Of a stretch of 64,000 bases of DNA, positions 5,334-11,975 are shown piece after piece. Source of the stretch: Dokdonella sp. (GTDB taxonomy: Bacteria; Pseudomonadota; Gammaproteobacteria; Xanthomonadales; Rhodanobacteraceae); NCBI GenBank assembly GCA_024707225.1, contig JANQAE010000003.1, forward strand, positions 434,001-498,000. The letters run 5' to 3'. How positions within the stretch are numbered: position 1 is the first letter of the stretch; each line of letters begins with the position of its first letter. The notes under the pieces are model-generated. The model saw only the letters and a list, made by a program, of their open reading frames with translations. It was not told the origin of the DNA and searched no databases. The position numbers were made by a program, and so were the translations under genes.

Positions 5334-6010
5334 ATGATCCGCTTCGAGCAGGTCGCCAAGCGCTATCCGGGCGGACACGATGCGCTGATCGATCTCAGCT
5401 TCACCGTGGCCGCCGGCGAGATGGTGTTCGTAACCGGCCACTCGGGCGCCGGCAAGAGCACCTTGCTGAAGCTGCTGAGTCTGGTCGAGCGTCCGACGCG
5501 CGGCTCGGTGCACGTCGACGACGTCGACCTCGCGCGCGTGCGGCGGCGCCGCGTGCCGCAGGTGCGTCGCGGCATCGGCATGGTGTTCCAGGACCATCGC
5601 CTGCTGATGGATCGCAGCGTGTTCGACAATGTCGCGCTGCCGCTGGTGATCGCCGGCGCGCCGCGCGCCGAAGCCGCCAAGCGCGTGCGCGCGGCACTCG
5701 ACAAGGTCGGACTGCTCGCGCGCGAGAAGGCGGCGCCGACGCTGCTGTCGGCCGGCGAACAGCAGCGCGTCGGCATCGCCCGCGCGATCGTCGGCAAGCC
5801 GCCGCTGATCATCGCCGACGAGCCGACCGGCAATCTCGATCCGCAGCTGTCGGTCGGCATCATGCAGCTGTTCGCGGAGTTCGCGCAGGTCGGCACCGCG
5901 TGCTGGTCGCCAGCCACGACCTGCACCTGATCAAGCGCATGAATCAGCGCGTGCTGGTGCTCGATCACGGGCGGCTGATCGACGACTTCCGCCCGCAGGC
6001 GGCCGCATGA
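5334..6010 (+). CDS. ftsE: Cell-division ABC transporter ATP-binding protein FtsE (one-base frameshift)
   Basis: ATPase of the FtsEX complex, which couples division to periplasmic cell-wall hydrolases. Walker A is VTGHSGAGKST, the signature is LSAGEQQR (Ala where most have Gly), and Walker B is LIIADEPTGNLD. As sequenced, the frame goes wrong after FAEFAQVGTA near 5898-5902 and stops at 5930. The normal ending, VLVASHDLHLIKRMNQRVLV, with the H-loop His, continues in the next frame to the TGA at 6008-6010. Restoring one G (GCG-GTG) rejoins the gene to about 225 residues, the family's length. The stop overlaps the ftsX start (ATGA), so translation is coupled. I treat the shift as a sequencing error, because ftsX downstream is intact. 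Confidence 0.93.
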
Positions 6011-7005
6011 ACGTCCGCCGCCGACCGCCACGCCGCAGCGCCCCCGAAGCGACACCGCCCAAGCGCCCGCGCGCGCCGCGGCCGAGTGCCGGCGCGCGCC
6101 TGGGCCGCTGGCGCGACCACCACCTCTACGGGCTGCTGTCGAGCCTGGGCCGGCTCGCGGTACGGCCGCTGGCGACCGTGCTGACGGTCACCGTGCTCGG
6201 CGTCGCGCTTGCGCTGCCGCTGCTGCTGCAGGCAGCGCTCGACAATCTGCGCGCGTTCTCCGGCGGCCTGCGCGAGGCGCGCGAGATCACCGTGTTCCTC
6301 GATCCGGACGTCGGCGCTGCGGCGGCGGCCGAGATCGCCGCCGGCTGGCGCGGGCGGCCCGACGTCGCCGAGGTCATCGTCCGCACGCCCGAGCAGGGGC
6401 TGGCCGAGTTCCGCCAGCTGTCGGGCTTCTCGGAGGCGATCGGGGTGCTCGACTCCAATCCGCTGCCGAGCGTACTCGTCGTCGCGCCGGCCGGCGCCGC
6501 GGCCGACGGCAGCGACGGCGCACTGATCGCCGCGATCGAAGCGGACCGTCGCGTCGACCTCGTGCAGCATGATGCGGCCTGGCGCCGCCGCCTGACGGCG
6601 ATCATGACGCTCGGCGAACGCGCCGCGATCGCGCTGGCCGCGCTGTTCGGGCTGGCAACCCTGCTGGTCGTCGGCAATACCGTGCGGCTGGACGTGCAGA
6701 GCCGCGCCGAGGAGATCGCGATCATGCAGTTGATGGGCGCCAGCGACGGTTTCGTCCGGCGTCCGTTCCTGTATGCCGGGCTCTGGTACGGCCTGCTCGG
6801 CGCGGTCGTCGCGATTCTGATCGCGCTGGCGATGCATCTGGCGCTGCGCGACCCGCTCGCGCAGCTGATCGCCAGCTACGGCGGCCAGCTGACGGTGCGC
6901 GGCGTCGCGCCGACGGCCTTGCTGGCGACGCTGGCAGGCGGCGCGGCGCTGGGCTGGCTCGGCGCCTGGATCGCCAGCACGCGACAGTTGAGGAGAACGG
7001 CATGA
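6007..7005 (+). CDS. ftsX: Cell-division ABC transporter permease FtsX
   Basis: Membrane partner of FtsE, 332 residues. A basic, Arg/Pro-rich cytoplasmic N-terminus of about 40 residues precedes the first membrane segment ([20 protein letters not shown]). A periplasmic domain follows ([20 protein letters not shown] onward), with the conserved NPLPS, and then three C-terminal membrane segments around [38 protein letters not shown] and [15 protein letters not shown]. The pre-helix motif [22 protein letters not shown] is diagnostic of FtsX. It overlaps ftsE by four bases upstream and the receiver gene by four bases downstream, so these genes form one translationally coupled unit. Confidence 0.96.
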
Positions 7006-7844
7006 CCGCGCTCGGGGAAATCGGCCAGCAGCCGCGCGTGCTGATCGTCGACGGCTCGCGCGTCGTGCGCCGGCTGATCGAGCAGGTGCTGCAGGCCGAG
7101 CTGCCGGGCGTGACGGTCGTCGCCTGCGCAAGCGGCGAGGAAGCACTGGCGCGGCTCGACGAAGGCAGCTTCGATTTCGTCACGACCGCGCTGCGCCTGC
7201 CGGACATGGACGGCGCCGATCTGGCGCGGCGGATCCGTGCGCATGCGCCGCAGGCCTACGTGCCGATCGTGGTCGTGTCCGGCTCGGCCCAGGAGCGGCT
7301 GATGGCGCGCACGCTCGGCGACGACGTGACCGACTACTTCGACAAGTCGCTCGGGTTCCAGGCGCTGGCCGCGTTCATCGGCGGCTACGTGCACCCGGTC
7401 GAGCGCATCACCGGCCAGGTGCTCTACGTCGAGGACAGCCGCGTGGTCGCATTGGCGACCTCGCGCATCCTCGAGCGGCACGGCCTGTCGGTGCGCCACG
7501 TGGTCAGCGCCGAGGAGGCGATCCGGATCGTCGAGGACGAGCGCGGCGCCGACGGCCTGCCGACGGTCGACCTCGTGCTGACCGACGTCAGCCTCAAGGG
7601 CGCGCTGACCGGTGGCGACCTGCTCGACCGCATCCGCAACCACTGCGGCCTCGGCAAGGGTCTGCTGCCGGTGCTGGTGATGACCGGCGACGACAATCCG
7701 CGCAGCCAGGCCGTGCTGCTGCGTGCCGGAGCCAACGACCTGGTCAGCAAGCCGATCGACGAACGGCTGCTGGTCACCAAGCTGCAGTTCCAGCTGCGCG
7801 TGAGCCAGCATCTGCGCCGCCAGCAGACCGAGCCGGCACGATGA
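7002..7844 (+). CDS. Double receiver-domain response regulator, first receiver degenerate
   Basis: 280 residues made only of two CheY-like receiver domains with no output domain. Receiver 1 (about 10-128) has VLIVDGS, so the acidic pair is reduced to Asp17, and the phospho-acceptor position before LRLPDMDG is Ala63 ([11 protein letters not shown]); Lys115 is kept. Receiver 2 (about 138-270) is complete: YVEDS pocket, Asp195 in LVLTDVSL, and the SKP lysine near the end. Only receiver 2 should take phosphate, so receiver 1 is probably a dimerisation or docking pseudo-receiver. The start overlaps the ftsX stop (ATGA) and its stop overlaps ung, so it is made together with FtsEX. No histidine kinase is nearby and its target is unknown. 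Confidence 0.88.
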
Positions 7845-8563
7845 GCACGTCCGAGCAGACCGCAGCCGATCGTCTCAAGCTCGAGCCGAGCTGGAAGCAG
7901 CGCGTCGGCCATTGGTTCGATCGGCCCGAGATGATCGCGCTCGGCCATTTCCTGCGCGAGGAGAAGCTGGCCGGCAAGGTGATCTATCCGCCCGGCTCGC
8001 GGATCTTCGCGGCGCTCGACACGACGCCGTTCGAGTCGGTCAAGGTCGTCGTCCTCGGCCAGGACCCGTATCACGGTCCGAACCAGGCGCACGGCCTGTG
8101 CTTTTCGGTGCTGCCCGGCGTGGCCGTGCCGCCTTCGCTCGAGAACATCTTCAAGGAGATCGAACGCGATCTGCGCATCGAACGACCCGATCACGGCTGC
8201 CTGATTCCGTGGGCGCGCCAGGGCGTGCTGCTGCTCAATGCGGTGCTGACGGTCGAGCGCGCCCACGCCGGATCACACCAGGGCAAGGGCTGGGAGGGCT
8301 TCACCGACGCGTGTGTCGACGCGCTCAATCGCGAACGCGAGAACCTCGTGTTCCTGCTCTGGGGCAGCTATGCCCAGGCCAAAGGCAAGCTGATCGACGG
8401 CCGCCGCCACCGCGTGCTCAAGGCACCGCATCCTTCACCGCTGTCGGCCCATCGCGGCTTCATCGGCTGCGGACATTTTTCTCGTACCAACGAGTACTTG
8501 CAGCAGAACGGCGTGACGCCGATCGACTGGCGGCTGCCACAGGCAGCCGAGCTGGCCCTGTGA
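7841..8563 (+). CDS. ung: Uracil-DNA glycosylase (family 1)
   Basis: Removes uracil from DNA to begin base-excision repair. The 240-residue product shows the water-activating motif [18 protein letters not shown] with its catalytic Asp, the uracil-binding [10 protein letters not shown] with Asn, [11 protein letters not shown], and the minor-groove loop [18 protein letters not shown] with its His. Length and motifs match family 1 UDG along the whole protein. The ATG at 7841 overlaps the stop of the receiver gene by four bases and gives the correct start, making ung the last gene of the ftsEX chain. A 189-base leader then separates it from rpoH. Confidence 0.97.
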
Positions 8564-8699
8564 ACGGCGGCCGCCCGGCCGCGATTGTTCACACCACGTC
8601 AGCACAGAAATAACTGGCGATTCACCGAATCGGGTGTAGTATACCGGCCAGTTCAGAAAAGGCCGCCACAGGCGTTCCGCACAGGAACTTCCGGCGCGC

Positions 8700-8726
8700 T
8701 TAGCACTCTCTTAGCGGGAGTGCTAA
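8700..8726 (+). promoter_or_regulatory. CIRCE operator (HrcA-binding site) upstream of rpoH
   Basis: A perfect copy of the CIRCE element: TTAGCACTC at 8700-8708, nine spacer bases, then GAGTGCTAA at 8718-8726. This is the operator of the heat-inducible repressor HrcA, normally found before groESL and dnaK-type operons. Here it lies 26 bases before the rpoH start codon, with the ribosome-binding site GGAGGA at 8741-8746 in between. A possible -10 hexamer TAGTAT at 8637-8642 lies upstream, which would place CIRCE in the transcribed leader as is usual; the matching -35 is weak. It implies HrcA repression of the heat-shock sigma factor gene. Confidence 0.93.
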
Positions 8727-8752
8727 TTTGCCACTCGATAGGAGGACTCCAC

Positions 8753-9627
<875 letters not shown>

Positions 9628-9672
9628 TCGGCCCGACGACGTGATCGCGCCGGCGCGCCGCGCCGGCTACCG

Positions 9673-9701
9673 ACGGCCCCGGTGACGGGGCCGTTTTTTT
9701 T
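9673..9701 (+). terminator. Strong rho-independent terminator after rpoH
   Basis: Perfect 8-bp stem CGGCCCCG / CGGGGCCG with a GTGA loop, extended by an A-T pair, followed by eight T. It lies 46 bases after the rpoH stop and just before the 3' end of priA on the other strand, so it separates two converging genes. Confidence 0.93.

Positions 9702-9717: not shown

Positions 9718-11975
<2,258 letters not shown>

Follow-up and report, generated by a model that had tools for sequence, protein, structure and literature searches.

HrcA and sigma-32 are commonly presented as two heat-shock systems with, at most, target genes in common, and the HrcA operator CIRCE is best known as a switch of chaperone operons. 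At the groESL and dnaK operons of Bacillus, Helicobacter and Chlamydia the operator is the one discussed here, GroE has been described to aid HrcA in Bacillus subtilis, Chlamydia trachomatis and Helicobacter pylori, and in Helicobacter HrcA sites lie at or over promoter elements and start sites (PMC6032397), as we predict for the locus below; the present locus differs from those systems in its target, the gene of a sigma factor, and in its promoter, which is of the sigma-E type. A CIRCE upstream of rpoH has already been predicted in Geobacter sulfurreducens (Rodionov et al. 2004, PMC545781, Table 8). That sigma-E controls rpoH is established for E. coli, where it transcribes the gene from P3 (PMC8103513), and for Vibrio, the factor binding the rpoH promoter in V. 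alginolyticus; RpoE promoters are described by GGAACTT at -35 and TCAAA at -10 (PMC4890791). The accessible text of PMC545781 yielded no mention of a sigma-E promoter under the Geobacter rpoH CIRCE, that of PMC11764788 yielded no CIRCE, and in the open literature, as far as its accessible text goes, G. sulfurreducens was the only CIRCE-rpoH link found. A fusion of CIRCE with a sigma-E promoter, or an account of its spread, was not found in searches of the open literature. Permina and Gelfand (2003) and Ueki and Lovley (2007) may report such cases, the former reportedly covering beta-, gamma- and epsilon-proteobacteria.

We then focused on the window, i.e., the whole 64-kb stretch of DNA that was analyzed. 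The earlier note had described a perfect CIRCE directly upstream of rpoH, and both elements of this description were borne out. Positions 8700-8726 read TTAGCACTC-TCTTAGCGG-GAGTGCTAA, two 9-bp arms around a 9-bp loop (no strand assigned), with 0 mismatches to the operator pattern TTAGCACTC-N9-GAGTGCTAA, and the element recurs in relatives. No other match with up to 3 mismatches occurs in the window, none was found in 100 dinucleotide shuffles of it, and the element is the sole inverted repeat of at least 8 nt detected in 8560-8760. The remainder of the interval up to 8752 is a leader in which a Shine-Dalgarno sequence, AGGAGG, can be read at 8740-8745 on the forward strand, followed by the start codon ATG at 8753-8755, so that 26 nt separate the 3' end of CIRCE from the start codon. 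The downstream gene was identified as rpoH by the TIGR02392 profile (rpoH_proteo; 330.3 bits, cut-off 323.1) from its 3' reading frame alone, and a sequence scan placed a terminator-like hairpin with a T run behind it, at 9672-9695 on the same strand.

To place this predicted operator in its genomic context, the whole genome of the host (G000, Lysobacterales; 4.37 Mb in 4 contigs, 99% complete) was inspected. It carries a single hrcA gene (PF01628 profile, 216.4 bits, cut-off 22.2, no internal stops), which is followed by grpE and dnaK as named by eye from their translations. With up to 3 mismatches allowed, the genome holds two CIRCE-like sites, one at rpoH (0 mismatches) and one at groES (2 mismatches), and hrcA has no CIRCE of its own by the same scan. 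The search for hrcA and for further CIRCE sites, proposed in the earlier note with the absence of hrcA as the refuting outcome, thus returned one hrcA and one other site. As it has 0 mismatches against 2, the rpoH site is the better of the two, and rpoH may be a tighter HrcA target than groES in this genome. The groES site, at L002:1501-1527, reads TTGGCACTC ... AAGTGCTAA, and its two mismatches are found identically in the near relative L008/G001. The arrangement is similar to that listed for G. sulfurreducens, where the arms are likewise perfect, some 50 nt lie between the site and the start of rpoH (-51 in G. sulfurreducens, -53 in the host) and groESL is also a target; however, that organism belongs to a different class, and its hrcA-grpE-dnaK-dnaJ operon has a CIRCE, whereas that of the host has none (PMC545781).

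Conservation of the element was evaluated in relatives retrieved with the RpoH 3' frame, a search that gave 80 named loci, the nearest of them from Lysobacterales MAGs at 86-87% identity. Two loci (L053 and L064) were left out, their upstream DNA being too short, and in the 78 readable rpoH loci CIRCE was called present when it had no more than 4 mismatches, L037 being accepted with 5. By this call, 62 of the 78 carry CIRCE before rpoH. Searches for hrcA found the gene in 37/40 and 23/40 genomes of two batches, and when the tables were joined by hand, the rpoH CIRCE was present in 57 of the 59 hrcA-bearing relatives vs 5 of the 19 without the gene (Fisher p ~1e-9, relatedness ignored). Seven relatives depart from this association and were counted against the preferred reading: L042 and L087 have hrcA and lack the rpoH CIRCE, and L019, L043, L054, L080 and L086, several of them MAGs, have the rpoH CIRCE and no detected hrcA. 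In L087, a Nitrococcus MAG, a sigma-E-like promoter, GGAACTT-16-TCAAA, precedes rpoH, and a recent loss of the operator is possible there. When the pattern was widened and at most 2 mismatches were allowed, exactly two CIRCE sites were present in 24 of 38 first-batch genomes, and groES was found in 38/40 genomes of a batch overlapping the first. None of the CIRCE sites listed for the first batch lies on the same contig as hrcA, and in the second batch a comparison of coordinates placed a CIRCE site close to hrcA in 12 of the 23 hrcA-bearing genomes.

When the leaders were set side by side, GGAACTT appeared a few bases before CIRCE, 16-17 nt ahead of CIRCE's own 'TC', and in most relatives this TC together with the loop forms a -10 box of the type TC(NNA), so that the operator overlaps a promoter of the sigma-E type. 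This promoter is absent from the earlier note. The layout was quantified in 63 leaders, those of 62 loci plus that of the window, by seeking the 7-mer closest to GGAACTT within 45 nt upstream, which had up to 2 mismatches in 59; relative to the terminal 'TC' of the left arm, 40 of these stand at 16 nt, 10 at 17 nt, 4 at 14-15 nt and 5 at 31-36 nt. With up to 1 mismatch and a spacing of 15-17 nt, 38/63 leaders qualify; 200 composition shuffles gave 0.21 on average and never more than 2. In four of the 63 leaders (L012, L013, L068 and L075) no -35 was found even with 2 mismatches allowed, and these count against the preferred reading. L039, L055, L073 and L074 have their CIRCE at an unusual spacing, and just upstream of it lies a GGAAC-type -35 that is followed after 16 nt by a TC box.

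The CIRCE sites of groES served as controls. Of 31 loci tried, 26 were kept; L147 and L150 were dropped for having no groES motif, and L146, L151 and L152 for having no site within 6 mismatches in the control scan, which wrongly missed L151, where the genome scan finds a site with 1 mismatch. A -35 at 15-17 nt was found in none of the 26; at the groES site of L161, a 7-mer one mismatch away from GGAACTT stands at a spacing of 18, just outside the range. Moreover, the third loop position is A in 52/63 rpoH sites vs 2/26 groES sites (p 3e-11), and the second in 38/63 vs 0/26 (p 1e-8). As groES sites largely lack it, this loop bias tracks rpoH and not HrcA binding as such. In addition, among the 16 rpoH loci without CIRCE a fixed rule found a sigma-E-like promoter in 8 and none in the other 8, the same rule being satisfied by 38/3200 shuffles and 3/487 other stretches of the same loci.

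A strict composite of -35 and CIRCE was then sought in 274 genomes of the class. It occurred in 67 of them, from 51 families, at one place each, while the reversed control gave 0/274, and in all 30 composite sites fetched out of the 67 a tblastn search with both RpoH pieces found an rpoH frame just downstream. hrcA was found in 199 of the 274 genomes, and the composite in 65/199 with hrcA vs 2/75 without it, the former figure being a lower bound because the pattern permits no mismatch beyond its degenerate letters. The two composite genomes without hrcA, G085 and G258, are 62% and 72% complete, respectively; the 134 of 199 hrcA-bearing genomes that lack the strict composite were counted against the preferred reading. 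This survey overlaps the 80-locus set (e.g., G346/G064, G347/G066, G236/G048 and G085/G079), and since some genomes share identical coordinates the two surveys are not independent. The rpoH CIRCE is therefore no peculiarity of the host: it is frequent in hrcA-bearing Gammaproteobacteria, besides its 2004 prediction in G. sulfurreducens.

In the window itself, the putative promoter is only in part as clear as in its relatives. The -35, GGAACTT at 8684-8690 on the forward strand, has 0 mismatches and is matched by the composite pattern. The candidate -10 inside CIRCE, TCTCT at 8707-8711 of the same strand, stands 16 nt after it and is weak, missing the final A that 61 of the 67 composites have, a point that counts against the preferred reading; an alternative, TCTTA at 8709-8713, can be read at a spacing of 18 nt. 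The host genome does encode an RpoE orthologue (TIGR02939, 327.9 bits, cut-off 236.15). Given the weak -10, the sigma-E reading for the host organism rests on the -35, on RpoE and on the relatives.

The weak -10 also speaks for a different arrangement, in which the HrcA operator would act as a roadblock in the leader for a housekeeping promoter further upstream and the sigma-E-like boxes would be unused. Several Rhodanobacteraceae-type leaders, some of them with a poor GGAACTT (L012 and L013), have TGGACA ... TACTAT upstream, and by eye against these a possible, weak sigma-70-like promoter, TGGCGA-16 nt-TAGTAT, can be pointed out in the window at 8615-8642 on the forward strand, a stretch that the alignment places slightly differently. 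Nevertheless, a consensus scan for sigma-70 promoters gave no match, at 8615-8642 either, the -35 of the window is perfect and at its usual spacing, and the sigma-E layout recurs in 51 families, so we regard the roadblock arrangement as unlikely. It is far less probable still that the inverted repeat acts mainly as an RNA hairpin on the stability or translation of rpoH mRNA. Regulation of E. coli rpoH does take place at translation, and the repeat does lie in the leader, before the Shine-Dalgarno sequence; but the site follows the presence of hrcA, its arms agree with the HrcA consensus base by base, a feature that an RNA stem would not require, and an mRNA begun at the sigma-E promoter would include no more than the right arm.

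A decaying rpoH with CIRCE as its leftover was also weighed, as the gene is not one unbroken frame in the window, a feature absent from the earlier note that also counts against the preferred reading. The 5' reading frame (P0002, region 1.2; 8753-8977) and the 3' frame (P0001, regions 2 and 4; 8974-9627), both on the forward strand and assigned by translation and domain search, with TIGR02392 for the latter, are in different frames, the change lying near 8970 (8960-8980), and the TIGR02392 profile found no second rpoH gene above the cut-off in the genome. However, the adjoining priA (9721-11951, reverse strand) has its Pfam domains in different overlapping frames as well, which points to single-base assembly indels as the likely cause. 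RpoH is unbroken at the same place in the three nearest relatives printed, and the residues past the break are 86-87% identical to those of L008 and L009. The break is thus probably an assembly error or indel, and a pseudogene is very unlikely.

We therefore consider it likely that CIRCE is an HrcA operator that gates rpoH transcription and that, in this lineage, is superimposed on a sigma-E (RpoE) promoter. The earlier proposal that HrcA represses rpoH agrees with the presence of hrcA, the conservation of the site and its co-occurrence with hrcA, albeit not as an oddity of one genome. The site lies not simply ahead of rpoH but, in most relatives, within a sigma-E type promoter, so that the transcriptional inputs stacked there would, in our interpretation, be sigma-E and HrcA. 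Envelope or heat stress would free sigma-E, which would read GGAACTT and TC(NNA). With free chaperonin at hand, HrcA would be active and, bound to its operator, would cover the -10 box and the start region, keeping rpoH low; HrcA at 8700-8726 would also block any distal promoter. Unfolded protein occupying GroE would leave HrcA inactive and the operator vacated, upon which sigma-E, and perhaps also a distal housekeeping promoter, would transcribe rpoH, with groESL released in parallel. The GroE link assumed here for the host follows the titration model of other bacteria (PMC6032397). The resulting logic would be 'sigma-E and not HrcA', and the chaperone synthesis added by sigma-32 would restore HrcA, presumably closing a loop. 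If HrcA does control rpoH through a sigma-E promoter in many Gammaproteobacteria, the HrcA and sigma-32 systems would be connected in series; envelope stress, chaperonin supply and the sigma-32 regulon would meet in one element of ~43 bp, and rpoH may respond to two kinds of damage simultaneously.

The same comparison bears on the E. coli gene. Ahead of rpoH in E. coli, a looser form of the sigma-E scan found TGAACTT-16-TCTGA; this element fits P3 and has the same boxes and spacing as the composite. Unlike the host, E. coli has no CIRCE there (the best match has 8 mismatches), and it is outside the 7 of 14 control genomes matched by the HrcA profile. A tentative proposal, to which we give somewhat less than even weight, is that Gammaproteobacteria inherited a composite rpoH promoter, a two-input gate in which the HrcA operator and the -10 share bases, that lineages losing hrcA kept the bare sigma-E promoter, and that P3 would be a remnant of it. 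The composite promoter would, in that case, offer a testable account of the origin of the E. coli rpoH sigma-E promoter.

Variation was also observed in the operator arms. In the leaders L018-L046 (Xanthomonas, Stenotrophomonas, Pseudoxanthomonas, Luteimonas and others), many CIRCEs have both arms changed alike, TTAGCAGTC-N9-GACTGCTAA, and some groES sites of the group are half changed. Most HrcA proteins of this group have Q instead of R at the position of residue 34 of the HrcA from the window's genome. Among 51 genomes in which both could be read, 11/11 Q proteins go with changed arms and 28/35 R proteins with canonical ones; in nine further hrcA regions the search pattern made the HrcA start readable in two, L204 and L211. 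A recognition code pairing Q or R with the arms was dropped, since R occurs together with a doubly changed operator in L096/G022 (Luteibacter) and in G261, from another family, and since the Q proteins are closely related to one another.

Two further observations concern the loci themselves. In L084, a MAG under the title Klebsiella pneumoniae, hrcA is present and the CIRCE at rpoH is perfect; the title is probably wrong. In the window, 5334-8563 holds an ABC ATPase (FtsE-like), FtsX, one further gene and uracil-DNA glycosylase, followed by rpoH; in E. coli K-12 ftsY, ftsE, ftsX and rpoH are consecutive, so that the window has two genes between ftsX and rpoH where K-12 has none.
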